DNA from: Streptomyces spororaveus | GTDB taxonomy: Bacteria > Actinomycetota > Actinomycetes > Streptomycetales > Streptomycetaceae | Direction of reading: 5' to 3' | DNA length: 33,826 nt | NCBI RefSeq assembly: GCF_016755875.1 | Contig: NZ_BNED01000007.1 | Location: forward strand, 1-33,826 | Notes under the pieces: model-generated | Told to the model about the DNA's origin: nothing | Database searches by the model: none | The model's input: only the letters and a program-made list of their open reading frames with translations | Made by a program: the position numbers and the translations under genes | Shown here: positions 443 to 20,473 of the stretch, piece by piece | Numbering within the stretch: the stretch's first letter is position 1 | Layout: each line of letters begins with the position of its first letter

Positions 443-470
443 GGAGTATCCCCACGAGAACGTTCGGTCG
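443..470 (-). repeat. Degenerate CRISPR-like repeat upstream of the leader
   Basis: The segment reads GGAGTATCCCCACGAG and ends in GGTCGG. It matches the array 1 repeat in its first half and at its end, with several substitutions between. It stands alone about 90 bp beyond the leader, between the leader and the cysteine desulfurase gene. It may be a relic of an older array. The rest of 353-524 shows no recognisable gene. Confidence 0.4.
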
Positions 471-524
471 GGCCGGCGGGAGGTTTCGATACGGTCAGGC
501 CTTCCCCCGACGCGCGGCCCCTCG

Positions 525-1688
525 TCAGGCGGCGCTGGAACGAGGTGGCCTCTGCCTGGCAGCGGCCTGCGCGATCAGTGCTGCGGCGCGCTCGACTTCG
601 TCGGCCGTGGTGTTGCGGCCGATGCCCAGGCGCAGGGTGCGGCGGGCCTGGGTGCGGGTGAGGCCGATGCCGGTGAGGACGTGGGAGGGCTCGCCGATTC
701 CGGTGTTGCAGGCGGAGCCGGTGGCGGCGGCGATGTCCGGGAGGCGGTCGAGGACGTCTGCAGCTTCGGCGTCGGGGAGGGTGAGGCTCAGGGAGCCGGG
801 GAGCCGCCGGGTGGGGTGTCCGTTGACGGTGGCGCCTGGGATCGCGTCGAGGAGTCTGTCCTGGAGGCGGTCGCGCAGGGCGCGGATCTGTGCGAGGGCG
901 GGGGCGGTGTCGCTGGTGATCAGGTGGGCGGCAGCGCCGAGGCCGACGATGCCGGGGACGTTGAGGGTGCCGGCCCGTAGCCCGCGTTCCTGGCCGCCGC
1001 CGGTTTGCTGGGCGGTGAGGAGGGTTCCGCCGCGAACGTAGAGGGCGCCGATTCCCTTGGGCCCGTAGAGCTTGTGGGCGGAGAGGGAGGCGAGGTCGAC
1101 GCCGAGTTCGGCGGCGTCGAAGAGGCCGTATCCGGCGCTCTGCGCGGCGTCGGTGTGGAGGAGGATCCCTCGGTGGGCGACGATTTGGGAGATGGTGGCG
1201 ATCCGTTGCAGGGTGCCGATCTCGTTGTTGGCGTGCATGACGGATACGAGGACGGTGTTCGGGGTGAGGGCGGCGGCGATGTCGCCGGGGTGGACTCGTC
1301 CGTGCTTGTCGACGGCGACGCGGGTGGAGGTGTAGCCGTGGTGGTCGACGAGGCGCTGGACGGCGGCGAGGACGGCCTTGTGCTCGATCGCGGTGGTGAC
1401 GATGTGCCCGCCGTGGGGGCGTTTGGTGAGGGCGCCGCCGAGGATGGCGAGGTGGTTGGCCTCGGTGGCGCCGGAGGTGAACACGACCTCGGCTGGGTTC
1501 TTCGCGCCGATGAGGTGGGCGACCTGCCGGCGGGCGGTGGCGACGGCTTTGGCCGCTGCCCGGCCGTAGGCGTGGGCGCTGTTGGGGTTGCCGTAATCGG
1601 TGGTGAGGTACGGCAGCATTTCTTCCAGGACGTTGGGGTCGAGGGGTGTGGTGGCCTGGTGGTCGAGGTAGATCGGTCGGCTGGTCAC
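525..1688 (-). CDS. Cysteine desulfurase, IscS/NifS/DndA type
   Basis: A PLP-dependent enzyme that takes sulfur from cysteine as an enzyme-bound persulfide and passes it to acceptor proteins. The 387-residue length fits the class V aminotransferase family. Visible residues are the PLP-stacking His103 in IEHKAV, the DAAQ motif around Asp180, the Schiff-base Lys206 in SAHKLYGPKG, and the loop cysteine Cys327 in GSACNTG. The GTG start at 1688 overlaps the stop of the upstream gene (GTGA), so the two are translationally coupled. It is the last gene of an operon with a dCTP deaminase-like protein, a HIT protein and an unknown protein. No iron-sulfur scaffold or tRNA thiolase gene lies beside it, so housekeeping cluster assembly is not its obvious job. 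That it supplies sulfur for nucleotide or DNA modification is an inference from the neighbours. Confidence 0.9.
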   Translation of the reverse strand: MTSRPIYLDHQATTPLDPNVLEEMLPYLTTDYGNPNSAHAYGRAAAKAVATARRQVAHLIGAKNPAEVVFTSGATEANHLAILGGALTKRPHGGHIVTTAIEHKAVLAAVQRLVDHHGYTSTRVAVDKHGRVHPGDIAAALTPNTVLVSVMHANNEIGTLQRIATISQIVAHRGILLHTDAAQSAGYGLFDAAELGVDLASLSAHKLYGPKGIGALYVRGGTLLTAQQTGGGQERGLRAGTLNVPGIVGLGAAAHLITSDTAPALAQIRALRDRLQDRLLDAIPGATVNGHPTRRLPGSLSLTLPDAEAADVLDRLPDIAAATGSACNTGIGEPSHVLTGIGLTRTQARRTLRLGIGRNTTADEVERAAALIAQAAARQRPPRSSAA

Positions 1689-2629
1689 GCTGCCTCCTTC
1701 TTGGCCCGGTCGGCGGGCGGCGCGGCCGCGGTGTACTTACGTTCGCCGTCGATGAGGTCCCAGTAGACGGTGCGGGGCTCGGCGAAGACGGAGAACGCGG
1801 TGGCCAGGCACCGCCAGTTCCGATTCGGCTGGGCCCGGGTGAGGACGAAGGCGTCCTCGAAGAGCTTGGCGGCGCGTCGCATCAGGGCCGGGCGCGGGTC
1901 CTGGGGGCCGAATAGCTGCAGGTAGCCGCGTTCGCGGAGCCAGGTTTCGGCGTGTTCGGGCTGGGGGTCTCCAACGAGCTGTCCGCCGTCGGCCAGGGTT
2001 TGGGCTGCGAGGCGCTCCAGGCGGCGGCGTCGGCGGGTGTCTTCCCCACCGGGGCAGTGTTCGCCGGTGAACTGCCACTCGTGCCAGCGGGGCGTGGTGT
2101 AGCGGTCCCAGTCGACGTTGCTGAGCTGTGCGGTGACCTGGGGCGGCAGTTCGCCGCGGGTGAGGTCGGCGACGTCGTAGCCGGGGCCGAGCGCTTCGAG
2201 GGTGAAGGTGCCGCGGATATGGGGGCGCGGGCGGTCCATCCGGATCATGACGGTGAGCTTGTTGGTGAAGCGGTTGGTGGGGCCTGCCAGGATGACCGCG
2301 CGCCCGTCGGCCAGCAGGGGCTGGGCCCGGTGTGTGATCTCGCCGATGGGGAAGGTGTTGCCTCCGCGGTAGTACTGCTTCTTCTCGACCCCACCGTCGG
2401 AGCGGATCATCAGCCGATCGGTGCCGAGCGCAGTGGCGAGGGCGTGGGCGGCGGTGCGTATCTCGGCCGGGCTCTGGCCGGGCCGTAACAGGGCTGCGTT
2501 CAGGGTGGGCAGGTGCAGGGAGTGCAGCAGTGCCATGGTCTGCCACTTCGGCCAGCGCCGGTCGTTCGCGGCTGCCGCGAGTTCCTCGGCGCTCAGGCTG
2601 TGCAGGGGTCGGGGCAAGGGATTCGCCAT
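1685..2629 (-). CDS. Conserved-looking protein of unknown family in the nucleotide/sulfur operon
   Basis: This 314-residue protein is not recognised with confidence. The ATG at 2629 is preceded by a clear AGGGGGA ribosome site. Notable segments are LMIRSDGGVEKKQYYRGG, then GEITHRAQPLLADGRAVIL, then a basic stretch NKLTVMIRMDRPRPHIRG, then FTLEALGPGYDVADLTRG. The order of a conserved Arg-Ser, an aromatic Gly-Gly and later acidic and Gly-rich segments recalls ATP-grasp or PEP-synthase-like nucleotide-binding folds, but this is a weak resemblance. There is no signal peptide or membrane helix. It is coupled to the cysteine desulfurase downstream and starts 16 bp after the HIT gene ends. It could be the acceptor or activating enzyme for that sulfur. 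Confidence 0.75.
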   Translation of the reverse strand: MANPLPRPLHSLSAEELAAAANDRRWPKWQTMALLHSLHLPTLNAALLRPGQSPAEIRTAAHALATALGTDRLMIRSDGGVEKKQYYRGGNTFPIGEITHRAQPLLADGRAVILAGPTNRFTNKLTVMIRMDRPRPHIRGTFTLEALGPGYDVADLTRGELPPQVTAQLSNVDWDRYTTPRWHEWQFTGEHCPGGEDTRRRRRLERLAAQTLADGGQLVGDPQPEHAETWLRERGYLQLFGPQDPRPALMRRAAKLFEDAFVLTRAQPNRNWRCLATAFSVFAEPRTVYWDLIDGERKYTAAAPPADRAKKEAA

Positions 2630-2645
2630 GTTGTCCCCCTGGTCG

Positions 2646-3272
2646 TCAGGTGGTCGCGGTGGCCCGGACGGCCGCGGTGAGGGTGTCGTACGTCTGGTTG
2701 TGGTTCTGCTCGAAGGGGTGGTCTCGCCAGTCGTACTGCTCGCCGATTCCGTACTGGTCGGCGACGACGCGGCGGACGAACTGGCGGGCGAACCTGCTGG
2801 CGGCGGGCCAATAGTGGTGCTCGCCCGGGCGGGGTGAGAGGTACAGGTACGAGGTCTGCGCGGCCGTCGGCAGATCGACGAGCGAGGTGAGGTGCCGGCC
2901 CGGGCCGCCGACCTTCTCGTACGCGGCCAGGATGGCGTCAGGGTCGTGCACGGGGATGAGGTGAAGGTGGGCGTGGCTGCAGCAGGAGGCGCCGAGCTCG
3001 CAGTCCCGAGGTCCGTGTTCGGCGACGATGGTGGGGCCGTAGTGGGTCTGGATCAGGGTGCGCATCGACTCCAGGCTGGCGGCGACCTGCGGGAGGTTGT
3101 CGGGCGTGATGTCGGCGGCCGCGTCGAGGTGCTCCAGCGGCATGTAGAGGGAGTAGCCGGGGGTGAGGCAGCCGACGGTGGGCAGGAGGACCCAGTGGTC
3201 GGCGGTCTCGGTGATGATGCGGTTCTTGGGTGCGCGCTCGGTGAACTCGGTGCAGAACTGGCAGTCGTCCAT
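2646..3272 (-). CDS. HIT-family nucleotide hydrolase or transferase
   Basis: The 208-residue protein carries the histidine-triad signature as HAHLHLIPVHD, in which the central His attacks the alpha-phosphate of a nucleotide substrate. A zinc-type CQFC pair sits at the N-terminus, as in many HIT proteins, and another Cys pair precedes the triad (GASCCSHAHLH). The C-terminal third is longer than in minimal HIT proteins. I chose ATG at 3272 because AAGAGG lies 8 bases upstream. A GTG at 3281 that overlaps the previous stop as GTGA is the alternative. Family members cleave nucleotide phosphoramidates, dinucleoside polyphosphates or adenylylated intermediates. The position after a dCTP deaminase-like gene suggests a nucleotide substrate, which cannot be named from sequence. 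Confidence 0.85.
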   Translation of the reverse strand: MDDCQFCTEFTERAPKNRIITETADHWVLLPTVGCLTPGYSLYMPLEHLDAAADITPDNLPQVAASLESMRTLIQTHYGPTIVAEHGPRDCELGASCCSHAHLHLIPVHDPDAILAAYEKVGGPGRHLTSLVDLPTAAQTSYLYLSPRPGEHHYWPAASRFARQFVRRVVADQYGIGEQYDWRDHPFEQNHNQTYDTLTAAVRATATT

Positions 3273-3277
3273 GGCAG

Positions 3278-3823
3278 TCACCTCTTGTTCGGGTCGCCGA
3301 GTTCGTCGGCGTAGCGGCTCTGCAGGTCAGTGGGCCGGCCGTAGAAGGGGTGGGTGGGCGCGGCGTGGCCGCCACCGCGTTGCTGGAGGACGAGGCGGGC
3401 CAGGGGCATGCCGTGGTGCAGGCGCAGCGTGGTCGGGCACTCGTTGACGAGTTCGAGGGTCAGGTGGCCGGACCAGCCCGGGAGGACGAACGGGCTGGTG
3501 ACGTGGACGGCCAGGCCGACGCGGGCCAGGTGGCTCAGGCCGCCGATCATCCCCGTGACGTCCGGGCCGAGGGAGACCGGCTCGAAGGCCGCGGCCAGGG
3601 CCATCTGGCCGGGCGCCAGGTCGTAGGTGTTCCAGTCGGTGATCTGCGGGCCGTACAGGGTGTCGATGCTGGACTGGTCGGCCAGGTCGACGACGGCGCT
3701 GGGGTCGACGAGCGGCTGGATCGGACTGCCCAGCTTCAAGAGCAGGCTGTCCCCGCGCAGTTCCCCGTCCCACGCTACGGCGCCGCTGTCGATGAGGTCC
3801 TTGATGGACGCGGCTGAAAACAT
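3278..3823 (-). CDS. dCTP deaminase / dUTPase-fold protein
   Basis: This 181-residue protein has the trimeric dUTPase/dCTP deaminase fold signature: HLARVGLAVHVTSPF followed by LPGWSGHLTLELVN. Glu124 in TLEL corresponds to the catalytic glutamate position of dCTP deaminases, and Arg101 to the phosphate-binding arginine region. The usual RSSLAR triad is altered to GLSHLAR, so the exact substrate is unsure. ATG at 3823 follows a GGGGGTGAG ribosome site. It is the first gene of the four-gene operon and faces the LysR gene across a 207-bp promoter region. dCTP deaminases make dUTP for thymidylate synthesis. Some bacterial ones are known anti-phage proteins that drain the dCTP pool. Which role applies here is inference. 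Confidence 0.85.
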   Translation of the reverse strand: MFSAASIKDLIDSGAVAWDGELRGDSLLLKLGSPIQPLVDPSAVVDLADQSSIDTLYGPQITDWNTYDLAPGQMALAAAFEPVSLGPDVTGMIGGLSHLARVGLAVHVTSPFVLPGWSGHLTLELVNECPTTLRLHHGMPLARLVLQQRGGGHAAPTHPFYGRPTDLQSRYADELGDPNKR

Positions 3824-3856
3824 GTCTCACCCCCGGGATTCAGGCATCGGTGTGGT

Positions 3857-3958
3857 GAACATCGCCAGATCGAATGCGATGGAGGAAATGTTCCCGTGGA
3901 TAGCTCGCCATGTCTCCATGCCCGACCGAACATTTCAAGGTTTTCCTGGCGTGAAATG
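3857..3958. promoter_or_regulatory. Divergent promoter region with nested inverted repeats, probable LysR operator
   Basis: Between the operon and the LysR gene lie GAAATGTTC (3885-3893) and its exact reverse complement GAACATTTC (3928-3936), centres 43 bp or about four helical turns apart. They are flanked by further half-sites GAACAT (3857-3862) and GAAATG (3953-3958), giving a symmetric four-site arrangement. LysR-type regulators usually bind such divergent regions as tetramers over several half-sites. The assignment to the adjacent regulator is inferred from position. Confidence 0.55.
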
Positions 3959-4030
3959 CGGTGAAGTCCACTACTGCTGGCCGCTCGGACAGTGCAAGCT
4001 GGTGGGTAGCGCCCAGGGAGGGGGAAGCGC

Positions 4031-5098
4031 GTGCCGTCGTTACCGTCCGGCCCGCTCAAAGTGCCTGGTCCCGAAGGGTTCCGGGGGGATCTGCTCGCCT
4101 GTTCACCGGACTTGCTGGACCTGACGTGGGACCAGATGCGCACGCTCGTCGTCGTCCATGAGGAGGGCACCGCGCTCGCGGCGGCCCGCCTGCTGGGGCG
4201 GGAGCAGTCCAGCGTGCAGAAGCAGCTCGACATCCTCAACCGGAACTTCCAGTCCCTGACCGGCGAGCTGGTGGTCGTGAAACAGGGACGCGGCCGCGAT
4301 CTGCTGTTCACCCCGACCGGGCTGGAGGTCGTGGACCGGATCCGGTCCACGTTCTCCGACTGGCTTCAGGGCATCGCGAACTCGAGGCGTCGGCTCGGAA
4401 GCAGCCTGACCGTGGGCACCACCGAGTTCACGCTCCCCTTCCTGGCTCGGGTGTGGGAGCGGGTGGAGCCCGAGCTGATGGCGCGGGAGGTGGAGCTCAA
4501 GGTCGTCCACGTGCGTACCCGCGACTTCCGTCAGCGCTTGGACTCCAACCAGGTGGACCTGCTGTGCGGGGGCCTGGCCGCGCCGGTCGGCGACGGCCCG
4601 CTCGCGCCCGAGTACGACTTCCTGGAGTGGCACCGCGAAGGCCTGGCCCTCCTGACGAACCTGTCCGTTAGGGAGCTGCCCGCTCGGCGGGTCGGCGTTG
4701 AGCGGCTGCGGAACCTGCCGCTGGTCATCCCCTCCCGCGGGGTGATCGCCGACTTCGTCGAACGCTGGTACGGAACCGACTTTCGCAGCCACCTCCAGGT
4801 CGTCGCGGAGATCGACGACATCTACTACGGGCTGGCCCTGCTGCGATCCGAGATGACCAGAGGTTGCATGCTGTGCGCGCGCTCCATCGGCGAAGCCGCC
4901 GTCGAAGGCCGGCTGCCCGGCGGCGAGGGCTTCCGCCTGGTCGAGTTCGCCGACGACTTCGACCCCATGCTCCAGCTCGTCTCTGGCGTCTTCGCACGCA
5001 AGGGCGAGCGGGACACCTACGACGCCTCGCACCCCCTGAACGTGCTGTGGGAGGCCTTCCGCGAGGAAGCCGCCTCCGGCCAGCCGATCCCGCTGTGA
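4031..5098 (+). CDS. LysR-family transcriptional regulator
   Basis: The 355-residue protein has an N-terminal winged helix-turn-helix (about residues 35-105) with the LysR pattern: TWDQMRTLVVVHEEGTALAA, then ARLLGREQSSVQKQLDILN, then FTPTGLEVVDRI. This is followed by a periplasmic-binding-protein-like effector domain (SSLTVGTTEFTLPFLARVW onward). The GTG start at 4031 follows GGGAGGGGGAA. It has an N-terminal extension of roughly 30 residues relative to typical LysR proteins. It diverges from the dCTP deaminase operon and is followed 28 bp later by the EEP-methyltransferase gene. It therefore probably controls both directions through the inverted repeats at 3857-3958. The effector is unknown; a nucleotide-pool or phage-derived signal would fit the context but is speculation. 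Confidence 0.88.
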   Translation: MPSLPSGPLKVPGPEGFRGDLLACSPDLLDLTWDQMRTLVVVHEEGTALAAARLLGREQSSVQKQLDILNRNFQSLTGELVVVKQGRGRDLLFTPTGLEVVDRIRSTFSDWLQGIANSRRRLGSSLTVGTTEFTLPFLARVWERVEPELMAREVELKVVHVRTRDFRQRLDSNQVDLLCGGLAAPVGDGPLAPEYDFLEWHREGLALLTNLSVRELPARRVGVERLRNLPLVIPSRGVIADFVERWYGTDFRSHLQVVAEIDDIYYGLALLRSEMTRGCMLCARSIGEAAVEGRLPGGEGFRLVEFADDFDPMLQLVSGVFARKGERDTYDASHPLNVLWEAFREEAASGQPIPL

Positions 5099-5126
5099 CC
5101 ATCCCTTCCGCCAAAGGGCACTCCTG

Positions 5127-6479
5127 ATGCTGCTGGCCTCGATCAACCTCAACAAGCGACTCGGCGCGGACGGACCGGATGGCGCCCGCGCCCGGTTCGC
5201 CGCCTGGCTGCGCGCGCACGACGTCGCGGTCATCGTCGCGCAGGAGCCGTACAAACCGGCGGACCGGCAACCGCCGCTCGTTCACGGGTACGTCTTCGCA
5301 GGCGGGGACGGTCACCTCGCCACCTGGGTACGCGAGGACGTCGCCACGCCAGCCGTGTCGACTCCGACCGCCTGGGCGCAGCGGGTGGAGCTGGGCTGGC
5401 TCACCGTCCTGCAGGTTCACCTCGATGCCTACAGCAGCGCGGCGCGTGCCACTCAGCTCGGCGAGCTTGCGGCACTGGCCGCGGCCGAGGGCGGGCGGCC
5501 ACTGCTGGTCTGCGGGGACTTCAACCTCGCGCCGCGGCCGCAGGACGGGCTCTACGGCGGGGAAGTCAGCGGGTTCACCGCGGACACCGAGCGCCAGGCG
5601 CTCCAGCACCTGCTCCAGAGCGCGTGGCTCGTCGACACCACCAGCCCGGACGGGCAGGAAGCGGACTTCACGTTCGAGCGGCTCTTCACCGGCAAACTCA
5701 GCCGTTTCCGCTGTGACCTCGCCCTGCTGAGCGACCACATGGCCGCAGGTGTCCCGGTCGCGGCCCGGCACGAAGTCCGGACGGGCCCACAGGCGTTCAC
5801 CGACCACTCCGCGATCCTGCTCCGCCTGCCCCTCACCCCGGAGGCCGCTGAGCCGGACGACGTCCTGTTCGCGATCAGCGACCTCACCGGCAAGCAGCCG
5901 GCGACCGCGGGCTCCCGCCCGTACCAGCCGCACAAGACCGCGATGAGCCGCCAAGGTGCCTCGCCAGCGGCCCGGGCTGTCACCGGGCACCTGACGGGCC
6001 CGCTCGGCGTCCGCACGGTCCTCGATCACGGGTGCGGCCGCGGGACCGACGTCGTCCACTACCGGACCGCCGGGCTGGACGCGGACGGGTACGACCCGCA
6101 CGAAGGTTTCGGCTGGCCCCGCCCGGAGCGGGAGGGCTACGACCTGGTAACCCAGATGTTCGTCCTCAACGTGCTGCCCGATCCAGGAGCGCGGATCCGC
6201 GCACTGCAGGACGCAGCCGCGTTCGTACGCCCCGGAGGTCACGTCGTCGTCGTCACCCGCTCCCCCGAAGAGATCACGAAGGCCGCCGCCGACGGCAGCT
6301 GGACGGCCCACCACGACGGCTACTGGTCGAGCAAGGGGAAGGGGACGTTCCAGCGCGGAATCAGTGCGGCGGAGACCACTGCGCTCGCCCGCCACGCCGG
6401 CCTCGTCCCCGCAGCGGGGACAGCCGGGCTGCCCCTGCCCGGAGTGAGTCACGTCGTACTGGTCAAGCCCGAGCTGTAG
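5127..6479 (+). CDS. Fusion of EEP-family phosphohydrolase and SAM-methyltransferase-like domain
   Basis: Residues 1 to about 240 form an endonuclease/exonuclease/phosphatase domain. It begins MLLASINLNKRLG, has the metal-binding Glu in IVAQEPY, the GDFNLAP motif, and ends with the TDHSAILLRLPL His. About residues 270-450 form a class I methyltransferase-like domain: HKTAMSR, then VLDHGCGRGTDV (SAM loop), DADGYDPH, a post-I QMFVLNVLPDP, and VRPGGHVVVVTR. The HKTAxSR plus GCGRGxDV plus NVxxDP pattern resembles the methyltransferase family associated with DNA phosphorothioation (dnd-related). ATG at 5127 follows AAAGGG. It is co-directional with the LysR gene. A two-domain protein that can cut phosphodiesters and methylate fits nucleic-acid or nucleotide processing. 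Substrates are unknown. Confidence 0.85.
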   Translation: MLLASINLNKRLGADGPDGARARFAAWLRAHDVAVIVAQEPYKPADRQPPLVHGYVFAGGDGHLATWVREDVATPAVSTPTAWAQRVELGWLTVLQVHLDAYSSAARATQLGELAALAAAEGGRPLLVCGDFNLAPRPQDGLYGGEVSGFTADTERQALQHLLQSAWLVDTTSPDGQEADFTFERLFTGKLSRFRCDLALLSDHMAAGVPVAARHEVRTGPQAFTDHSAILLRLPLTPEAAEPDDVLFAISDLTGKQPATAGSRPYQPHKTAMSRQGASPAARAVTGHLTGPLGVRTVLDHGCGRGTDVVHYRTAGLDADGYDPHEGFGWPRPEREGYDLVTQMFVLNVLPDPGARIRALQDAAAFVRPGGHVVVVTRSPEEITKAAADGSWTAHHDGYWSSKGKGTFQRGISAAETTALARHAGLVPAAGTAGLPLPGVSHVVLVKPEL

Positions 6480-6504
6480 CGGTGCTGCGGGGCCTGCAAC
6501 GAGG

Positions 6505-6834
6505 TCAGCGGTTGCCGGTCCAGACGATGCGCTCCGAGAACCCGCCCCGCTCCTCGGCCTTCGATGCCCGGATCTTCTCCAGCTGGACGGGATCGACGCC
6601 GAGGTCCGCCGCGAGGGCGAAGGCGACCTCGAGGACGTCCGCGAGCTCCTCGGGAGCATCGGTCTCGTCCGCCGCCATGTACTCCGCCACCTCTTCGGTC
6701 AGCTTCGCACGGAGGCGCTCGCGGTACTCCGCCGGATCGGCCACATAGACCTCCGGCTCGGCTCCGCCCACACGGATAATCTCAGGAATCCGGTCCCGTA
6801 CCAGCTTGCCGTCGACCACGTACTTCTCCTGCAC
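6505..6834 (-). CDS. MazG-like NTP pyrophosphohydrolase
   Basis: The 109-residue protein matches the small all-alpha house-cleaning NTP pyrophosphatase group. It starts QEKYVVDGKLVRDRIPEIIR and carries the Mg-binding pattern LTEEVAEY, then EELADVLEV (the EExxE and ExxD pairs). GTG at 6834 was chosen because family members begin just before the KLVRDxIP segment. A longer frame to 6930 would add 32 residues unlike the family. No strong ribosome site is visible. Such enzymes remove non-canonical or excess (d)NTPs. Its end is convergent with the EEP-methyltransferase gene, 25 bp away. It adds a third nucleotide-pool function to this cluster. Confidence 0.8.
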   Translation of the reverse strand: MQEKYVVDGKLVRDRIPEIIRVGGAEPEVYVADPAEYRERLRAKLTEEVAEYMAADETDAPEELADVLEVAFALAADLGVDPVQLEKIRASKAEERGGFSERIVWTGNR

Positions 6835-6889
6835 CAGATCGTCATGGGCTGGCCAGACAGCCGGGCCCTCACGTGGGTTCGAGCCTAGA

Positions 6890-6913
6890 GATGGCGCCTC
6901 AACTGGCGCCATC
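6890..6913. repeat. Perfect hairpin upstream of the MazG-like gene
   Basis: GATGGCGCC and GGCGCCATC form a perfect 9-bp stem with the six-base loop TCAACT. It lies 56 bp upstream of the chosen GTG. It could be an operator or a 5'-leader structure. The remaining interval up to array 2 (6914-7146) shows no gene I recognise. A poor repeat-like match occurs near 7088. Confidence 0.5.
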
Positions 6914-7146
6914 AGAAACACAAATCCCACCCGAATCGGTTAGCCGATCACACCGGCAACCGTGCCAGCAGCACCGCAATGCCGGAACCAAGGCTGCATC
7001 CAAGGGCAGCAGCCCCCTCATGCCGCACGGCCCCCCATCCAGGAAAAGCCACGCACGGCATTAGTGACCTCGCCGACACCCGAGCGCGGGCCATCCCGCT
7101 GCACCACCTCCGCCCCTGCCAGAACACGATCGGATTCGTGAAGCTC

Positions 7147-8456
7147 GGACCATCCCCGCAGGCGCAGGATCGACGCGCCTGTGACGCACAACCCCGAGCC
7201 CAACGCCGGACCATCCCCGCAGGCACGGGGTCGACAGTCTCTGCGGAGGTCTCCTCTAGAAGCTGCTGCGGACCATCCCCGCGAGCGCGGGGTCGACGTG
7301 AACGGCTGGGGGAGCACGGCGGCCTTCTTCGGACCATCCCCGCGGGCGGGGTCGACGCGTTGTGGTAGCAGCCCCGTGACGTGGTGTCCGAACCATCCCC
7401 GCGAGCGCGGGATCGACGGCGCCTACGACCACGTCGTCCTCGCCCAGCTCGGACCATCCCCGCGGGCGCGAGGTCGACGGGGAGTTCGGTCATAGCGTCT
7501 TCCTCCGCCCTCGGACCATCCCCGCAGGCACGGGGTCGACTAGCGGATGAGCGGGTCGAGGATGCCGAGCGGCGGACCATCCCCGCGGGCGCGAGGTCGA
7601 CTGGCCGGCGGCCGCCAATCCACCCATGTCGCCCGGAGCATCCCCGCGGGCGCGGGGTCGACCAGCTGCCCGAGAGCGTCCAACCCACGTACGCCGGACC
7701 ATCCCCGCGGGCGCGGGATCGACGGCGGAACCGGCATCGCGACGGACGGCATGGCCGGACCATCCCCGCGGGCGCGGGGTCGGCGCGCCGGTGGCCGGCA
7801 CGGTCAGGGGCTGCTCCGGACCATCCCCGCGGGCGCGGGGTCGACTGGGGGCTGGCCGCGGTGACGCCCTGCTCGACCGGACCATCCCCGCGGGCGCGGG
7901 GTCGACCCCTCGGGGACCGTGTCCGAAGCAGTGCGCCGCGGACCATCCCCGCGGGCGCGGGGTCGACGCGATGACCTCCAGTACGACGAGGACGAGGAGA
8001 GGACCATCCCCGCGGGCGCGCGGTCGACGGAGCGAGGTCCCACGGCGCACGCTCCACGGGGGGACCATCCCCGCGGGCGCGGGGTCGACGCCTACGAGGT
8101 GGCGTGGGCGAGCGTGCCGCTCGGACCATCCCCGCGGGCGCGGGGTCGACGCCCGGCAGCAGGCGGAGGGGCTGCGGGACTGGGGACCATCCCTGCGAGC
8201 GCGGGGTCGACGTGACCTCAAGGCCGTGCAGCGTCTCGACCGCCGGACCATCCCCCGCGGGCGCGGGATCGACGTGAGGGGCACCGTGCGGAACCCGGCG
8301 TTGGACGGACCATCCCCGCGGGCGCGGGGTCGACCTGCCCGCCGGTTACTTCCATCCGGTCACCAGCGGACCATCCCCGCGGGCGCGGGGTCGACGAGAT
8401 GCTCGGCACCTACCTGACCTCGACCCCCGGACCATCCCCGCGGGCGCGGGGTCGAC
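7147..8456 (-). CRISPR. CRISPR array 2, type I-E, 22 repeats
   Basis: Twenty-two repeats start at 7147, 7208, 7270, 7331, 7390, 7451, 7513, 7574, 7635, 7696, 7757, 7818, 7879, 7940, 8001, 8062, 8123, 8184, 8245, 8307, 8368 and 8429. Most are 28 bp with 33-bp spacers; two spacers are 34 bp. One repeat (7331-7356) has lost 2 bp and one (8245-8273) has gained a C. Repeats near 7147 are the most divergent and those near 8456 match consensus best, so the trailer is at the left and the leader end at the right, giving minus-strand transcription. The leader of arrays 1 and 4 is absent here: the array ends 67 bp from the cas6e stop and may be expressed as the tail of the cas operon. The two degenerate length variants may process poorly. 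Confidence 0.97.
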
Positions 8457-8523
8457 TTTCGGGTTCGGTGGTGGGCTGCGGGTCAGCGCGGTCGATGGGC
8501 ACAACGTCGCGTGAGCTGGGGTG

Positions 8524-9321
8524 CTACTGGGCGGCGGCGAGGGTGAGGAGACCGCAGCCGTACGCCTTTGCGGGGCCGATGCCGGTGAGCAGGGTGCGGG
8601 CCAGGGTGAACGGGTCGGTGACGGTGAGGGTGCCCTCGTAGGTAGCGGTGGTGATGGTGACTGTCGTGTTGCCGGTGCCGGAGCTGTCGGTTTTGGTGAA
8701 CTGTCGTCGGTCGCGGGCGGTGATGCGGACGTCGAGGGTGGGCTCGGGTTCGGCGGCGGGGGCTGTCAGGGGCAGGATGCTGGGCGCGGCCGGGGCGGAT
8801 GCCGGTACCTCCTTCAGTTCGAAGCCGAAGCCCTTGACGCGGTCGGTGAACCACGCAAGCTGATGGGCTGCGGTGCGGTGGCCCATGCGGAACGAGCGGG
8901 TCTTGCCGTCGGCGGCGGCCGCAATGCGGTCGGTTTGTGTTTTGGTGGGGTTCTGTGGGGTGCGTGAGTTCTGGACCGGGGATGCCGTCAGCCGGAACCC
9001 GTAGACCTGTCCGGGCTGGAGCTGCGCGAGGAGTTGTCCGTAGTCGGCGACGACGGGTTTGGCGTTCGGTTCGTCGACGAGCCAGCCGGCCTGCTCGACG
9101 AGGGCTGTCCAGTCCGGTGCGACCTGCGTGACCGTGTACAGGTAGGGGCGGTGGCGGTTGTCGCTGTCGAGGCGCCACAGGGTGCGTCCCGCGTCGGGGT
9201 GGTAGGCGACGGCGCCGAGGACGGCAGCGTGCATGGCCTGCGGGGACCGCAGGAGCTTGCGGGTGCCGTCGCGGAGCGGGGCGAGGGGGATGCGGGACAG
9301 GTGGGCCATGGGGTTCACCAT
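8524..9321 (-). CDS. cas6e: Cas6e (CasE/Cse3), crRNA endoribonuclease
   Basis: The 265-residue Cas6e cuts pre-crRNA at the 3' base of the repeat hairpin and stays bound in Cascade. The N-terminus (HLSRIPLAPLRD) is the family's first ferredoxin-like strand. His31 in QAMHAAVLGA matches the catalytic histidine position, and the C-terminal Gly-rich loop is GIGPAKAYGCGLLTLA. ATG at 9321 overlaps the cas5e stop by 7 bases; an in-frame ATG at 9309 is an alternative. It is the last cas gene, and its stop lies 67 bp from array 2. In canonical I-E loci cas1 and cas2 follow here; both are missing. Confidence 0.93.
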   Translation of the reverse strand: MVNPMAHLSRIPLAPLRDGTRKLLRSPQAMHAAVLGAVAYHPDAGRTLWRLDSDNRHRPYLYTVTQVAPDWTALVEQAGWLVDEPNAKPVVADYGQLLAQLQPGQVYGFRLTASPVQNSRTPQNPTKTQTDRIAAAADGKTRSFRMGHRTAAHQLAWFTDRVKGFGFELKEVPASAPAAPSILPLTAPAAEPEPTLDVRITARDRRQFTKTDSSGTGNTTVTITTATYEGTLTVTDPFTLARTLLTGIGPAKAYGCGLLTLAAAQ

Positions 9322-10109
9322 CCGAGAAGGGCGAGGGGGTCATGCCCTTCGCCGCTGGTTGCGTCCGGGCCGGGATCGAATCCCGTGGGCAGGGGGATCA
9401 GGGTGTGGCGGACACGGCGGCTTGTGTGCCGGGGGCCGCTCGAGGCGTAGCTGAGGGGCTGGTCCTGGAGGATTGTGTCGCCGTTCGGATCGTCTAGGAC
9501 GGCCGATACCTCGACGGTGGCGGGGGAAGCACCGCGGTGCTTGCGCTGCCATAGGGTCCGGGCGTGGGGGGATGCGAGCCAGTCGTGTCCGGTGAGGACG
9601 TCGGCGATCGGATCGGCAGTGGTGCCGAGTACGAGCGGGAACGTGGGCGGGCAGGAGCGGCGGCCAAGAGCGAGTATCGCCACCGGGGCCTTCGCCGCGG
9701 CGGTCACCTCGGCCATCACGGGGGCCGGGCCGTGGATGGCGACGAGGAATGCCGCGTCCTGCAGGTAGAACCGCTCCCCGGTCATCGTGTACCGGGCCGG
9801 GCTGGTCCCGACCTGGCGGCCTTTGCCGTTGACCTTCGAGGACAGGAGCGGCACGCCCCGGTAGTCGCTGACCGTGTGGTAGTCCCGCAGCAGGGTTCCT
9901 GGTACGTCGGCGCGTACGCCGATGGTGAGTTCGGCCAGGGCGCCGAGCGGTTCGTCTCGTTCGCGGCCGAGGGCCGCGCCGAGGAGTCCGATGACGCCGG
10001 ACTTGGTGGGCATGGGGCTGGTGTGCCGGGTGTCGACGACTGCACGGTGGTCGCCCCATGCTTGCAGGGGTGCCGCGAGGCGGAGCAGGAGCGTGGTTGC
10101 CTCGGTCAC
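9315..10109 (-). CDS. cas5e: Cas5e (CasD), Cascade subunit
   Basis: The 264-residue RAMP protein binds the 5' handle of the crRNA. The family N-terminus is clear: TLLLRLAAPLQAWG, then SPMPTKSGVIGLLGAALG. GTG at 10109 overlaps the cas7e stop as GTGA, so the two are coupled. An upstream extension in the same frame is Arg/His/Pro-rich shadow of cas7e and was not included. It sits in the order cse1-cse2-cas7e-cas5e-cas6e normal for type I-E. Confidence 0.94.
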   Translation of the reverse strand: MTEATTLLLRLAAPLQAWGDHRAVVDTRHTSPMPTKSGVIGLLGAALGRERDEPLGALAELTIGVRADVPGTLLRDYHTVSDYRGVPLLSSKVNGKGRQVGTSPARYTMTGERFYLQDAAFLVAIHGPAPVMAEVTAAAKAPVAILALGRRSCPPTFPLVLGTTADPIADVLTGHDWLASPHARTLWQRKHRGASPATVEVSAVLDDPNGDTILQDQPLSYASSGPRHTSRRVRHTLIPLPTGFDPGPDATSGEGHDPLALLGW

Positions 10110-11248
10110 CGGGACAGCTCCGCGGTGAGGTTGTCGATGAGGGTGGGGAAGGTGAGGGCGGGGCCGAACGCGGTGCCGAGGGCTTTGGCGGTGTCTTCGC
10201 CCGTGAAGGCGTGGGTGATGCCGGTCCACAGGGCGGGGGCGCCCCACTGGTGGGTGATGGTGGTCTGCTCGGTGGCCAGGGCGGTCGCGGACGGCTCGGC
10301 GTAGCCGGTGCCGCCGTATGCCTGGACGGGCTTCTCGAAGGCGGTGACGAGGTTGACGGGCTGGTCCTCCCGGACGGCGACGGCGACGAGCTGTGGCATG
10401 GTGCGGTGGCCGAAGCTGTTGCCGTAGCCGGTGGGCATGGACCGGACGAACGCGGATACGAACGCGCTGGCGGCCTCGACGGCGGCCTTGGGGTTACCGA
10501 GGTTGGTGTCGAGCTGGTGCAGGGACACGGTGCCGTACCGGTAGAACGTCGCCGAGTTGAAGCCGATCCGGCCGATCATTCCGGCCCCCTTGGAATCGGA
10601 TTGCTGCCGGTCGTCGACGGCCGTGTAGTAGTCGAATTCCAGCTCCGCGGCGTGGGTGGCGAGGGCGTGCGCGACCTGGCAGGCGGCGTTCACGTCGATG
10701 CCGGGTACGTTGGCGACCATCCGGCCGAAGAGCCCGACGTCGATGGGATGCCCGGTCATCAGCGCGCTCTTCACCTCGGCGGTGGCGAGCTCGGCGAGGA
10801 GTTTCTTGTCGTCGAGGGTGGCCAGTTCGGCGGCGCGGTCGGCGACCAGGTCGACGAGCTTCTCGATCTGCCGGTTCCCGTAGAAAAGGAGATAGGCGGT
10901 CTCCTCGGCCTTGTTCTTGCTCGCGGTGATCCCGAGGGGGGCGAGGACGGCGGCCGCGATCCGGGCGGCTGGCTCCGGATCCAGGCCGGTGCGGGCGGCG
11001 AGCTCCTCGGCAAGGTGGTCGGCGATCTGCTTGGTGCGGGTGCCGAGCTGGTCCTCCCCGATCCCGAGCGCAGCGAACGCGAGGCGGGTAGCGCGCTTCC
11101 ATGCCTGCGAGGAGGCACGCGGGCGGCGCACACCCCCGTACATCGCTTCCTTGGGCGATCCCGCGTCGTCCCTGTTCAGGTTGGACGGGGGGACTGTCTG
11201 CAGCACGTGGACGTCGATGAATCGGCGGCGCGTGGTCTTGTCGGACAT
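10106..11248 (-). CDS. cas7e: Cas7e (CasC/Cse4), Cascade backbone
   Basis: The 380-residue protein forms the six-copy backbone that coats the crRNA spacer. The family N-terminus is intact: FIDVHVLQTVPPSNLNRDD, then AGSPKEAMYGGV, then RASSQAWKRATR. ATG at 11248 is preceded by AAGGAG at ideal distance. This is the best ribosome site in the operon and fits the need for many Cas7 copies. A 124-bp gap separates it from cse2, whereas the other Cascade genes overlap. Confidence 0.95.
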   Translation of the reverse strand: MSDKTTRRRFIDVHVLQTVPPSNLNRDDAGSPKEAMYGGVRRPRASSQAWKRATRLAFAALGIGEDQLGTRTKQIADHLAEELAARTGLDPEPAARIAAAVLAPLGITASKNKAEETAYLLFYGNRQIEKLVDLVADRAAELATLDDKKLLAELATAEVKSALMTGHPIDVGLFGRMVANVPGIDVNAACQVAHALATHAAELEFDYYTAVDDRQQSDSKGAGMIGRIGFNSATFYRYGTVSLHQLDTNLGNPKAAVEAASAFVSAFVRSMPTGYGNSFGHRTMPQLVAVAVREDQPVNLVTAFEKPVQAYGGTGYAEPSATALATEQTTITHQWGAPALWTGITHAFTGEDTAKALGTAFGPALTFPTLIDNLTAELSR

Positions 11249-11372
11249 GGGTGACTCCTTGGTGAAAGTGCTGGATACGTCCCGGGGGCGGATCCCGTCT
11301 TGCAGGGATTGCTCTCGCGGGGTGTGCGCGCCCCACGAGGAGATGCCGGCCCGGGCGCGCGTGATGGAACCT
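11249..11372 (-). other. 124-bp gap between cse2 and cas7e
   Basis: This is the only untranslated gap inside the otherwise overlapping Cascade operon. It contains GCGCGCCC and GGGCGCGC (within 11330-11368), which can pair across about 20 bases, and the strong cas7e ribosome site at its downstream end. It may set mRNA stability or stoichiometry. No U-run is seen, so a terminator is not claimed. Confidence 0.4.
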
Positions 11373-11972
11373 CTACACGGTGCTGTTCTGGGTGTCGGCC
11401 GGCTTCGTCCACGCGTGGTAGGTCAGTCCCCAGGCTCGGACGGCGCGGGCGCGGGTTTCGGGGAAGGGCCACACCTGCAGGTCGTACAGGAGCCGCGTGT
11501 AGTCGAGGGGCTGCCCGATGCTTGCGAGCTGGGACACCAGGCCGCGTACGGCGAAGAACACGGCGTTCAGGGTGCGGGCCTGCGCGGCCGCGGCCATCCG
11601 GCCGTCCACTCCATCGGTGCTGAAGCGCTCGTGCAGGGTCCGGGCGGCCTGCCCGAGGCCGATGCCCCGCGCGTGCATCAGCCTGGCCTGGCCCTGCTGA
11701 TGCATCGCGAACAGGGCCAGCGCCATGTGCTCGGCGACCAGCTTGTCCGGGACCAGGCCGCGGGCGGCCAGAGAGTCGTCGATCTTCGTCCGGTAGTGGC
11801 GCCACATCTGCGGGACTGTCCCCGCCGGAAGAGTCAGCCCCATCCGCAGCGCGGCCAGATCAGATCCGGGCGGTGTCCTCCCGGCCTTCGACCGGCCCGG
11901 TTCGAAGTCGCACCAGTACCACGGGGCGGTGCTCACCTCGGGTGCGCCGGTGCTCTGTTCGGGGATGGTCAT
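11373..11972 (-). CDS. cse2: Cse2 (CasB), Cascade small subunit
   Basis: The 199-residue, mostly helical protein fits Cse2, which forms a dimer along the Cascade belly and stabilises the R-loop. Recognisable segments are PGSDLAALRMGLTLPAG and the helical core around LALFAMHQQGQARLMHARGIGLG. ATG at 11972 overlaps the cse1 stop as ATGA. Sequence similarity within this family is low, so the call leans on position between cse1 and cas7e plus size and helical character. Confidence 0.9.
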   Translation of the reverse strand: MTIPEQSTGAPEVSTAPWYWCDFEPGRSKAGRTPPGSDLAALRMGLTLPAGTVPQMWRHYRTKIDDSLAARGLVPDKLVAEHMALALFAMHQQGQARLMHARGIGLGQAARTLHERFSTDGVDGRMAAAAQARTLNAVFFAVRGLVSQLASIGQPLDYTRLLYDLQVWPFPETRARAVRAWGLTYHAWTKPADTQNSTV

Positions 11973-13585
11973 GCGCTTGTCTCCTCGGCGGGCGGGTACA
12001 GGTGGGTGAGATTGCGGCGCAACGCCGCGTGGAAGAACCGTTCGGCGCTGGCCTGCCGGTATGTCTTCGCGTCGGCACCCTTGCCCTGCGTGACGCCGTT
12101 GAACGCCCGCCCCGGGAGCCGGTGCAGCAGCTCGTCCGCGGCTGCGCGGGCGGCCCGGTCGGCAAGGGTCTCGAAGGCGTGATGCGCCTGGTCGAGCTCG
12201 GCATGGTCCGGGTTGTGCTGGCAGCCGGTCAGGAACCTGCGCACCAGCGGGTCAAGGGTGTGGAGCAGCTTCGTGCCGGGCTGCTGCCCCTTGCCGGCCG
12301 GTGCGGGTTCCCCGCCGACCGCGAGCGCGAGGTGCTTGGCGAGGTCGTCGATGGCGTAGGCGAGGTTCTCGGCCTGGGTGCATACCTGGATGACCGAGCC
12401 GCGCAGTGCCATGTCGGCGCGGAGCGCGGCCATGGGGATGGGCATGGAGTCGAACAGGACATCGGCGATGATCGCGGACTGGGTGCCGTAGACGACACCG
12501 CAGGTCTCGGCGCGCAGCGGATAGGTGACGGGCAGGTCGCCGGTGAGGGTGGCGGACGCGATCTGCGTGAGCAGGCTGGACGTCTCGACACCGGTCGTGT
12601 CCTGGTCGAGGGCGATGAGTGTCTTGAGGCCGCGCCATCCGGTCCGGCCGGGCAGGTGTCGGCGGGGGTAGCGGATGCTGCCCTTCTTCGGGTCCTTCTT
12701 GATCGTCCAAAGGGTGTGAGGCTCCCAGGCCGGCACCTCGGGCATCCGGTCCCCGCCGGACATGACGACGTGCGAGACGTACAGCCCGCCGTCGATCTCG
12801 TCGGGGATGAGACGGATCCTGCGGGCCTGCCAGGTGAAGAGGTCCAGGACACCGGCCGGGGTACGTTCGTCCCAGGTCGGCCCCAGCGGATCCCGGCGCC
12901 ACTGCGGCATGTCGCCGTCCGGCCGCGCGCCGGTCGGAAGGTTCAGCACGATCGTCTCGAAGAGAGTCGGTCCGATCGGTGTGACGACGCCGAGGAACCC
13001 GAGCGGGCCCACCCTTGCGCCCATCGTCTTGCCGGCCTTCGCCTTCGGGTCGCCGACCGCGGCCGTCTTGATCCCCGCGGTGTCCCAGGACTGGGCATGC
13101 AGCATCCACCGCACCGCCTCCCCCACCGGGACCGGCTCGGGGTCGGCGTCCGTACGGGCATTGCGCAGCGGGGTGTTGTTCCCCGTCGCCACGTGCGGCA
13201 TCAGTTCGGTCACCGGCTTGACGACGTCTTTCGGATGCGTCAGCCCTGCCGCCTGGCCGAAGGGGCGAACGTCGTCGAAGACCCGGAAGGAGTCCCGGTG
13301 CTCATCCAGGTACTGGGCGATGTCCGCGCACTGGCCGGGAGTGAAACGGGCCTCGTCCATCATGTCCGCCCACGCCTCGGCGTCGATGGGGCCGAGCGCG
13401 TCCAGGACCACGGGCACGAGGAGCTGCCTCAGCAGAACGGGGGTCATCGTCGGCAGCTCGACCGCGAGACCGGCGAACGTGTGCGAGTCGAGGAGCGCAG
13501 AACGAAGACCGACCTCCCGCACTCCGTCGGCGCTTCTGACAGGGATGCATCCCTCGTCGACCAAACACGACTCGTGAGCAGCCAA
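11969..13585 (-). CDS. cse1: Cse1 (CasA/Cas8e), Cascade large subunit
   Basis: The protein recognises the PAM and recruits Cas3. I chose TTG at 13585 (538 residues): AAGGGAG lies 5 bases upstream, and the protein then begins AAHESCLVDEGCIPVRS, matching the usual Cse1 N-terminal pattern ending in a W/CIPV strand. A reading frame open to 14083 would add 166 residues of arginine/serine-rich shadow. Length fits the family (about 500-560). The promoter probably lies between 13586 and 14233, because cas3 is 2.1 kb away with an opposite-strand gene between. Confidence 0.92.
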   Translation of the reverse strand: MAAHESCLVDEGCIPVRSADGVREVGLRSALLDSHTFAGLAVELPTMTPVLLRQLLVPVVLDALGPIDAEAWADMMDEARFTPGQCADIAQYLDEHRDSFRVFDDVRPFGQAAGLTHPKDVVKPVTELMPHVATGNNTPLRNARTDADPEPVPVGEAVRWMLHAQSWDTAGIKTAAVGDPKAKAGKTMGARVGPLGFLGVVTPIGPTLFETIVLNLPTGARPDGDMPQWRRDPLGPTWDERTPAGVLDLFTWQARRIRLIPDEIDGGLYVSHVVMSGGDRMPEVPAWEPHTLWTIKKDPKKGSIRYPRRHLPGRTGWRGLKTLIALDQDTTGVETSSLLTQIASATLTGDLPVTYPLRAETCGVVYGTQSAIIADVLFDSMPIPMAALRADMALRGSVIQVCTQAENLAYAIDDLAKHLALAVGGEPAPAGKGQQPGTKLLHTLDPLVRRFLTGCQHNPDHAELDQAHHAFETLADRAARAAADELLHRLPGRAFNGVTQGKGADAKTYRQASAERFFHAALRRNLTHLYPPAEETSA

Positions 13586-13892
13586 AATGGCTCCCTTCTC
13601 TGCAAGTTGACGGATGGTCAGACAAGACGAAGAGGACGGTACGCAACTCTGAAGAGATAGAGCAAGCCGTGGCCAAACATTGCGAACACCCTGGATCCCG
13701 ACATCAGGAGGACCCACCCGGAGGTGTACCGGATGGGTCTGACAATCGGCTCCCGCGGCAGATCTCAGCTGGTTCGCCCCGACGATCGGGCATCGCTCGA
13801 ACCGCCTTACAGCGGATCCGTAACAAGCCGGCTGCCCCCAGCGTGGAGTCGTGGTGCGTGAGATCTGGATGCTGGCTCCGGGCTCCCCGTGG

Positions 13893-13921
13893 TCGGAGTC
13901 TTCTCCGCTCGCGCGGGGCGA
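13893..13921 (-). repeat. Isolated CRISPR-like repeat relic
   Basis: The segment containing CTCCGCTCGCGCGGGGCGAC matches the right end of the array 3 repeat type (CCCCGCTCACGCGGGGCCGAC at 15589-15609) apart from two substitutions and one missing base. A weaker unit follows at about 13963-13990. It lies on the cse1 side of the membrane-protein gene and suggests that the eroded array once extended further. In such GC-rich DNA a chance match is possible. No gene is seen in 13586-14233. Confidence 0.35.
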
Positions 13922-14233
13922 CCTGGGCCATGTCTGCTCCGATGCAGGTGCAGGTGCAGGCAGAGCTGCTCCCGTACGCGCGAGGTCGGCGGACCCCCTA
14001 CATGGCTGTGCACGCGAGAACGGGAGTCGTTTGTCAACGGCTTCGGGAATCACTGAGCGGCTCAGCAGTTTGATCAATGTCAACGAGTTTGGGAGTCACT
14101 CCCGTGTCCACAGATGCAATGTGCGGGCGCGCGGGTTGCCGATACGGCTGCCTGGCGGATGTCCGCGGGTGAGGGCACAAGACACACGAACCTTCGACTA
14201 CATGGGCGGGAGACACATCACGAAGATCAATGA

Positions 14234-14674
14234 ATGGCTTCCGAAAAGGCACAGTTTGCTGCCGTACTTGCCCAGGTGATTCCTTTGGCCATCCTTGCTG
14301 TAGTAGTGGAGTCGCGCAGCGGCCATGAGGCGCGAGCAAAGGCACCGGCAGGGGTCGCACCCGCCATCTGGGTACTCGTGCTCGAAGCCGTCATCGTGAC
14401 AGGCCTCGTGTTTGTTGAGATGGCTGCGCTGATGACTGCAGCTGGCTCGAATACGTTCATCCTGAACTGGCTCGCAGGAAGGCCCGGCGCCATCGGCGTT
14501 GGGGTCTTGCTGGTGCAAGTGGGGCAGCTCTACGTCACCAATCTGGCCGAGTCGTACGAACAGAACGGCAAGCTGAGCAGCGCACAGGCCAAGATTGTCA
14601 AGATCGTTACCAGGACCCTGCTGTGGTGCGCCGTGCTTCTTGCGCTGGTGGCGGTCTGGTGGTTCTACGTGTGA
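14234..14674 (+). CDS. Small multi-pass membrane protein inside the CRISPR locus
   Basis: The 146-residue protein is not recognised by family. It shows four likely membrane segments: about residues 7-25 (FAAVLAQVIPLAILAVVV), 45-70 (IWVLVLEAVIVTGLVFVEMA), 85-103 (AIGVGVLLVQVGQLYVTNL) and 127-146 (LLWCAVLLALVAVWWFYV). A polar loop, AESYEQNGKLSSAQAKIVKI, precedes the last helix. No good ribosome site precedes ATG at 14234. Its codon choice is less GC-biased than its neighbours. It lies on the plus strand against the cas genes, between cse1 and an eroded array. It could be a recent insertion or a membrane partner of the defence locus. Function is unknown. Confidence 0.6.
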   Translation: MASEKAQFAAVLAQVIPLAILAVVVESRSGHEARAKAPAGVAPAIWVLVLEAVIVTGLVFVEMAALMTAAGSNTFILNWLAGRPGAIGVGVLLVQVGQLYVTNLAESYEQNGKLSSAQAKIVKIVTRTLLWCAVLLALVAVWWFYV

Positions 14675-14827
14675 CGGCCACGAGCGTCGCCTGCCTTCGG
14701 CCCAGTAGGTGACTCCCGAAGTCGCGAACATCGAGTATTCGCGCAAGCGCGCGACTCGATCTCGCGTCAAAACGACGTCGCTAGTCGCGTACAAAGCCAC
14801 CCTTCACGATCAGCGCTGAGGGCTCCC

Positions 14828-15609: not shown

Positions 15610-15690
15610 GCAAGGTCGAAGAGCACATGGGCAGGGGCCGCCCCTTTCCGACCTGCAGTGTTCTGCAGGCAGGGCGGGTTCCGGGCGCTT

Positions 15691-18504: not shown

Positions 18505-18606
18505 GACCACAACCGTATGACAGGGCACTGACACAACCCCCACCCCGCCCAGATCCCAAGAAGACACCCACAACACCCGCTCCTCCTGGAATCACCTGGG
18601 AGCAGC

Positions 18607-20220: not shown

Positions 20221-20223
20221 GGG

Positions 20224-20466: not shown

Positions 20467-20473
20467 ACCCCGA

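Follow-up and report, generated by a model that had tools for sequence, protein, structure and literature searches.

The contig NZ_BNED01000007.1 of Streptomyces spororaveus (assembly GCF_016755875.1) was analysed over its positions 1 to 33,826, and we refer to this whole stretch as the window. It carries a group of seven genes, here called the cassette, for which an initial annotation made from the letters alone had suggested a part in sulfur modification of nucleotides or nucleic acids, or in defence. We confirmed all seven reading frames at 525-6828, where codon-position bias is strong, and the seven genes lie where they had been placed (525..6834). Four genes are transcribed from the minus strand in the order DCD (a protein of the dCTP deaminase/dUTPase fold), HIT (HIT superfamily), U314 (a 314-residue protein) and CysDes (a cysteine desulfurase). 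As had also been noted, these four overlap or nearly do so: DCD and HIT share 4 nt, HIT and U314 are 16 nt apart, and U314 and CysDes again share 4 nt. On the plus strand, the gene for a LysR-type regulator is followed by one encoding an EEP hydrolase fused to a methyltransferase, and a MazG-like gene on the minus strand is convergent with the latter.

A conserved unit of seven genes

A profile search of species-representative genomes with the U314 alignment returned eight loci, all in Streptomyces or [Kitasatospora] papulosa. Together with two plasmids, pSMg1-2 (L016) and the plasmid of strain NBC_01278 (L017), these make up the locus set; L002, L003, L012-L014 and L114 come from the same genomes as counted loci, as judged by matching positions or identities, and were not counted. 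All nine other whole loci (seven genome contigs and two plasmids) carry the seven in unchanged order and orientation. One locus, L006, begins inside the HIT gene, and HIT, U314 and CysDes are visible there. Protein identity to the window is 61-97% in seven whole loci, the short second MazG piece aside, and the pairwise identity matrices of the seven genes correlate with r values of 0.83-0.98 (45 pairs).

The pairing of U314 with the EEP-methyltransferase extends to more distant relatives. Taking equal contig size as a strong but indirect sign of a shared contig, we found that 35 of the 120 listed U314 relatives (of 246) lie on contigs identical in size to that of one of 119 listed EEP-methyltransferase relatives (of 262; row P0195 of the 120 in the list, which had no contig size, was left out), as against 0-3 chance matches at 40 shifted values. 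The pairing reaches down to about 50% identity and includes Nonomuraea wenchangensis and metagenome proteins. We conclude that the seven genes form one conserved unit, and the order and orientation kept in 9/9 other whole loci lead us to reject chance grouping. The initial annotation had named loss of the neighbours in other genomes as the result that would speak against it, and the neighbours are conserved. The coupling of nucleotide-acting families to a sulfur donor, which it had pointed out, is real. No model in PADLOC, Pfam, NCBIfam or PHROGs describes the set, and we found no earlier description of it among the titles and abstract openings listed for the open-licence literature, which does not cover most subscription journals.

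Families of the cassette proteins and their control region

U314 has no match in Pfam, NCBIfam, PADLOC or PHROGs at the limits used. It heads a family of at least 246 proteins (E <= 0.001) that these libraries leave unnamed. Structure prediction, which had been proposed for this protein, gave an ATP-grasp fold whose best matches are ATP-grasps of the phosphoenolpyruvate (PEP)-synthase type. The top Foldseek row, DcsG (6jil), is also an ATP-grasp, with a template-modelling score of 0.37, and the statement on the fold is not based on that row; no RNA ligase occurs among the best 50 fold-match rows. By its predicted structure, U314 is an ATP-grasp protein of the PEP-synthase/RPH type.

CysDes scores 409 bits against the NCBIfam NifS model, under the cut-off of that equivalog. 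Its pyridoxal-phosphate lysine (Lys206) and persulfide cysteine (Cys327), both assigned through alignment to solved cysteine desulfurases, are invariant in the eight aligned sequences (L005, L009 and L010 were left out of this alignment). The HIT protein stays under the Pfam cut-offs (HIT, E 0.084; CwfJ_C_1, E 5e-4) and its AlphaFold2 model has a predicted local distance difference test score of 42.5; the superfamily triad, H103-x-H105-x-H107, is present and invariant in 10/10 sequences. In the EEP-methyltransferase, N7, E40, D131, N133, D226 and H227 as well as the motif LDHGCGRG are invariant (17/17), and in the MazG-like protein E79, E80, E95 and D98 are so in nine of nine rows, one of them a solitary second copy on L016. 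Relatives of the MazG-like protein on both plasmids are annotated as nucleoside triphosphate pyrophosphohydrolase. Since these relatives begin at the equivalent position, its start is probably near 6828 and not at the upstream GTG. As far as alignment can tell, the residues usually regarded as catalytic in these families are conserved in the cassette enzymes.

DCD was aligned to the E. coli dCTP deaminase Dcd (1xs1), with which it has in common the fold and the equivalents of the catalytic residues S111, R115 and E138 (S97, R101 and E124 in DCD), invariant in 9/9 sequences (L009 left out). The two proteins differ at the equivalents of Dcd R110, S112, A124, R126 and D128, where all nine cassette proteins carry L, H, S, F and L, respectively; the host's own Dcd retains the KSS and the D of the FIDPG motif. 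Because the replaced residues are presumably substrate residues, DCD reads as an enzyme with a changed substrate. It scores 79.3 bits against the curated model TIGR02274, under the curated cut-off of 92.8 bits, and it matches no PADLOC family at E 0.1, the anti-phage dCTP deaminase model included. Anti-phage dCTP deaminases have the zinc-dependent cytidine-deaminase fold. Their known role had been cited in support of a defence function, and this support is weakened, DCD being of the dUTPase-type Dcd fold with altered residues and without a PADLOC match. The host encodes its own Dcd (36% identity) and further proteins of the cysteine-desulfurase type (best 45, 39 and 33%), so the cassette copies are extras.

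The LysR-type regulator is the most conserved of the seven proteins (mean pairwise identity 0.88, 10 sequences). About 38 nt upstream of its gene lies a dyad that is exact in 10/10 distinct loci holding the region and has one match in the window, as against 0.07 expected (up to one mismatch). Its pattern of conservation is as expected of a dimer-binding site, and the dyad is a candidate LysR operator. A promoter and terminator scan of 3700-4150 returned neither, and no sigma-70-like promoter was among its results.

Table 1 Features of the cassette and its control region in the window
Feature	Position	Strand	Basis
Conserved cassette block	464..6945		blastn of window against loci: 467-6945 (L016, 91.9%), 464-6943 (L017, 90.7%), 513-6945 (S. 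goshikiensis L004, 91.9%)
CysDes, NifS/IscS-type cysteine desulfurase, 387 aa	525..1688	-	Pfam Aminotran_5, E 1.3e-78
U314, stand-alone ATP-grasp protein by predicted fold, 314 aa	1685..2629	-	Overlaps CysDes by 4 nt
HIT-superfamily hydrolase/transferase, 211 aa	2646..3281	-	Weak Pfam CwfJ_C_1/DcpS_C/HIT; HxHxH triad
DCD, dCTP deaminase/dUTPase-fold protein with altered substrate residues, 181 aa	3278..3823	-	PF22769, E 4.8e-21; aligned to E. coli Dcd 1xs1; overlaps HIT by 4 nt
Divergent intergenic control region	3824..4030		137/253 alignment columns, including ~20 nt of coding edge on each side, invariant in 9 sequences (window and 8 loci)
LysR-type operator candidate, dyad CTGTCCG-NN-CGGCCAG	3977..3992	-	Arms invariant, two central bases variable
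LysR-type regulator, 355 aa	4031..5098	+	PF00126 at cut-off (LysR helix-turn-helix, 26.8 bits vs 26.6)
EEP hydrolase fused to S-adenosylmethionine methyltransferase, 450 aa	5127..6479	+	EEP PF03372, E 1.1e-9; Methyltransf_23 PF13489, E 3.8e-11
MazG/PRA-PH-like nucleoside triphosphate pyrophosphohydrolase, ~107 aa	6505..6828	-	PF12643, 23.7 vs 27 bits (below cut-off); open frame extends to 6930

Mobility and genomic setting

The cassette is rare. Counting the host, U314 occurs in 1/396 genomes of a phylum sample, 2/394 of a class sample, 3/391 of an order sample, 4/392 of a genus sample (one of these a 40-residue match at E 5e-4) and 1/61 relatives; no genus other than Streptomyces appeared in the phylum and class samples. 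Within the near clade the conserved block ends sharply, at about 464 and 6945 in the window. Its settings vary: plasmid pSMg1-2, the NBC_01278 plasmid, where it lies beside phage-like genes, and chromosomes. At L010 a DDE transposase lies within about 0.3 kb of the cassette.

At L011 (strain DvalAA-14), the cassette sits between perfect 46-bp direct repeats (5253-5298 and 12331-12376) that represent the 3′ portion of tRNA-Thr(TGT), whose intact gene lies at 12334-12408. The neighbouring ABC gene is present in all 81 genomes searched, and 30 loci of those genomes were compared: 26 have a single tRNA copy beside the ABC gene and four have no tRNA in the examined stretch. Direct attachment-type repeats and empty sites together were thus found at one locus of ten, and the flanking tRNA-Thr repeats indicate that the cassette can integrate as a small element. 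No integrase was recognised in the 7.1-kb segment, in which no open reading frame (ORF) of >=70 aa outside the seven genes passed the codon-bias filter; this points to movement in trans or to loss of an integrase. The other loci yielded array or short matches only and no flanking repeats of the tRNA type; for L009, no empty-site relative with both flanks was found. We conclude that the cassette is an autonomous, horizontally moving unit that occupies various replicons and sites. The data lend no support to a phage-borne module: a search of 50,697 phage records gave no U314 relative, and the 25 pattern-matching stretches from viral contigs included no relative either.

Pfam and PADLOC were each run on 10 flanking proteins (11 distinct), mostly from 100 flank ORFs. 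In L008 ([Kitasatospora] papulosa), a metallo-β-lactamase (MBL)-like protein and an 850-aa Prok-E2_A/ThiF/JAB fusion, encoded at 7316-11394 and starting about 120 bp after CysDes, match PADLOC models. A PCMT-like methyltransferase in L009 also matches PADLOC mad2 (E 8e-13). The other matches are pentapeptide repeats (L007), an ABC-transporter ATPase (L011) and Methyltransf_19 (L017); the remaining proteins had none. Prompted by the L017 neighbour, we searched the host genome for Methyltransf_19 and obtained one unrelated match.

In the window the cassette has CRISPR repeats to either side (about 34-304 and 7149-8457); more repeats lie at 18622-18880, and a type I-E set (Cas6e, Cas5e, Cas7e, Cse2, Cse1 and Cas3) occupies 8524-18576. 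There is no room for cas1/cas2 between Cas6e and the adjoining array, and none were seen in the window, where no search by cas1/cas2 models was made. The position between arrays, on which the initial annotation had drawn for a defence role, is thus correct for the window; it does not hold in general, arrays flanking the cassette in only three of ten loci (the window, L004 and pSMg1-2). The examined stretches of L005, L007-L011 and L017 contain no arrays, flanks being unequal in length (L008 has only about 0.7 kb before the cassette). All three array-bearing loci belong to the near clade (about 90% identity), of which L005 and L017 lack arrays in the stretch. The array repeats in the window are not the same as those in L004 and pSMg1-2; pSMg1-2 carries cas2e, cas1e and casE-A, with no separate cas3 listed. 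The association may reflect one inherited event or a preference for CRISPR-bearing elements, and the count of 3/10 in the examined stretches leads us to reject a CRISPR accessory module.

Sporadic presence, plasmids, the tRNA-gene island and the CRISPR loci together suggest that the benefit of the cassette is conditional, for example in phage defence or competition, and not a housekeeping one.

Several further observations concern these replicons. The ends of two window arrays (275-354 and 18851-18930) share an 80-bp stretch, 83% identical, that extends past the last repeat, and a comparable sequence of 118-119 bp, made up of a repeat plus array end, flanks the cassette on either side in L004 and L016. 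Beside cas3, at 15511-15609, two diverged repeat-like copies of 38 nt lie 61 nt apart and are possibly a decayed array. On pSMg1-2 the solitary second MazG-like copy (L016 25626-25952) stands beside another CRISPR array, about 190 bp there match the window past the cassette end, and the copy is perhaps a relic of another cassette; the same plasmid has a tgmA-B-C cluster for an ATP-grasp ribosomally synthesized and post-translationally modified peptide (L049 4052-6371). On the NBC_01278 plasmid, a gene of about 16 kb annotated as a DEAD/DEAH helicase adjoins the cassette (L017 20461-31591 and beyond), with a portal protein upstream. A pair annotated there as MazE7 antitoxin/Doc toxin is about 8.5 kb away from the cassette, and a two-gene pair at 19840-20481 of the window is similar to it in DNA. 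An ABC-F protein nearest the TlrC/CarA producer type adjoins a relative of the streptogramin lyase Vgb at 25159-27810 of the window, both below curated cut-offs.

A possible sulfur pathway and its alternatives

Among the closest known parallels are the Dnd/Ssp phosphorothioation systems and Type-4 BREX (DndA/SspA, DndC/SspD/BrxP), which likewise place a NifS/IscS-like desulfurase in a mobile cassette. PADLOC DndA and SspA both match CysDes strongly; against NCBIfam DndA it scores 360 bits, under the 480-bit cut-off, a generic NifS/IscS resemblance. The methyltransferase domain, which the initial annotation had likened to that of phosphorothioation loci, is distantly like TIGR04096, a family of phosphorothioation-associated methyltransferases. 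This link proved thin, the match covering about 100 residues and scoring 48.8 bits where the family cut-off is 150, and next to a relative of the domain on a Massilia plasmid no dnd-named gene is among the 10 features listed in an incomplete gene table. The cassette differs from these systems in having no recognised activator of the phosphoadenosine phosphosulfate (PAPS)-reductase type, no DndB/D/E, no SspB/C and no restriction module; its ATP-using partner has an ATP-grasp fold instead. The absence of dnd and ssp partner genes, as already stated in the annotation, was upheld by Pfam, NCBIfam and PADLOC, which recognised none in the cassette. No cassette protein matches DndC, and DndC (TIGR03183) was not found in the whole host genome (0/1); among control genomes 5/14 matched, none over the cut-off. 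Two absences argue against DNA phosphorothioation: no PP-loop or PAPS-reductase-like protein was recognised among the seven, and the host genome gave no DndC. We reject a remnant of a dnd/ssp locus on the second of these and on the NCBIfam and PADLOC results. Passages of two surveys of phosphorothioation and BREX (PMC10853773, PMC12839542) do not mention the cassette.

With no DndC found, no match to an anti-phage dCTP deaminase model and no recognised partner of the two-component dikinase kind, the cassette as a whole fits none of these three known systems.

We tentatively propose, at somewhat below an even chance, that the cassette is a mobile LysR-controlled pathway for dedicated sulfur chemistry on a small, probably nucleotide-like molecule. 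The overlap of the CysDes and U314 genes is most simply read as that of a sulfur-insertion pair. CysDes would take sulfur from cysteine as an enzyme-bound persulfide, U314 would spend ATP on turning a substrate oxygen into a leaving group, either a phosphate ester or an acyl phosphate, and the persulfide sulfur would then displace it. Thiouridylases and CTP synthase follow the same logic of activation and displacement. ThiI and MnmA, which work with IscS as donor, are PP-loop enzymes acting on tRNA; here an ATP-grasp activator would replace the PP-loop, and no RNA-binding domain was recognised. Four of the families act on nucleotides, which suggests a substrate or scaffold resembling a nucleotide; the fused methyltransferase suggests that the product is tailored. 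DCD and HIT, on the same transcript as U314 and CysDes, would prepare or trim the nucleotide part, the EEP-methyltransferase would cleave a phosphodiester and methylate, and the MazG-like enzyme would remove unwanted triphosphate forms. LysR would switch the pathway, probably by sensing a small molecule. We infer both the activation chemistry and the substrate.

A number of points weigh against this proposal. ATP-grasp enzymes usually form amide or thioester bonds, and we know of no precedent for sulfur insertion by this fold. Cysteine desulfurases also serve Fe-S assembly, and a LysR regulator is unusual for a phage-defence system. U314 has no PF01326 match, and its profile comparison by hhalign with nine PPDK_N domains, from the host and from relatives, was not significant (probability 0.24, E 0.25), so that its assignment to the ATP-grasps comes from the predicted fold. 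PEP-synthase/RPH-like ATP-grasps are described as phosphorylating a histidine of a swivel domain (PMC12167813). Pfam detects no such phospho-histidine domain among the seven proteins, which sets the cassette apart from rifampin phosphotransferase and from two-component small-molecule dikinases of the HpeHI type (HpeI, PDB 9goj).

A small natural-product cassette, releasing a sulfur-containing nucleoside or a peptidyl-nucleotide antibiotic or signal, with HIT, MazG and EEP in tailoring or self-protection, is possible, if on balance unlikely. The LysR regulator with its conserved operator candidate is typical of metabolite pathways, in which ATP-grasp ligases are also common, and the fused methyltransferase and the sporadic distribution in actinomycetes fit as well. 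However, Pfam recognises no transporter, carrier-protein, nonribosomal peptide synthetase/polyketide synthase or precursor-peptide gene among the seven, the near-clade block ends sharply, and no such cluster is among the open-licence literature titles listed.

We consider it unlikely that the cassette serves in phage defence by making, upon infection, a thio- or otherwise altered nucleotide that either poisons replication of the phage or drains a nucleotide pool. This is the idea of the initial annotation, with DNA phosphorothioation left aside. This explanation draws on mobility and neighbours: the cassette moves, CRISPR arrays adjoin 3/10 loci (with cas1e, cas2e and casA-E on pSMg1-2), the MBL and E2-E1-JAB pair of L008 matches PADLOC models, and four families act on nucleotides. 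However, the three CRISPR-adjacent loci are of one clade and may go back to a single inherited event, the only PADLOC matches in the cassette are the generic ones of CysDes, and Pfam gives no obvious sensor or toxin domain.

It seems improbable that the cassette acts as a mobile, LysR-inducible unit of immunity or competition by making a free thio-substituted nucleotide, in a sulfur analogue of CTP synthase: the ATP-grasp protein would phosphorylate a base oxygen, the desulfurase would swap in sulfur, and the other enzymes would tailor and police the product. Nucleic-acid end-processing or repair, with U314 as an atypical ligase, HIT as an aprataxin-like deadenylase, EEP as a phosphodiesterase and the methyltransferase in end protection, is very improbable: the HIT protein is nearest the CwfJ/DcpS-type models and an ATP-grasp RNA ligase, RLIG1, is described (PMC11494293), but the best fold matches of U314 are PEP-synthase-type ATP-grasps, its motif most like the ligase KxDG has an invariant Arg76 (31/31) in place of the nucleophilic lysine of ligases, and the dedicated desulfurase and DCD would be left without a role.

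If the proposed sulfur pathway makes a sulfur-bearing nucleotide, nucleotides would have a further way of acquiring sulfur, next to tRNA thiolation and DNA phosphorothioation, and ATP-grasp enzymes a new job. Should the product be a free thionucleotide, the cassette would represent a thionucleotide pathway outside tRNA and the DNA backbone. The cassette brings its own regulator and, as a complete mobile unit, is small enough at about 6.5 kb to be cloned and tested in one step, whatever it makes.

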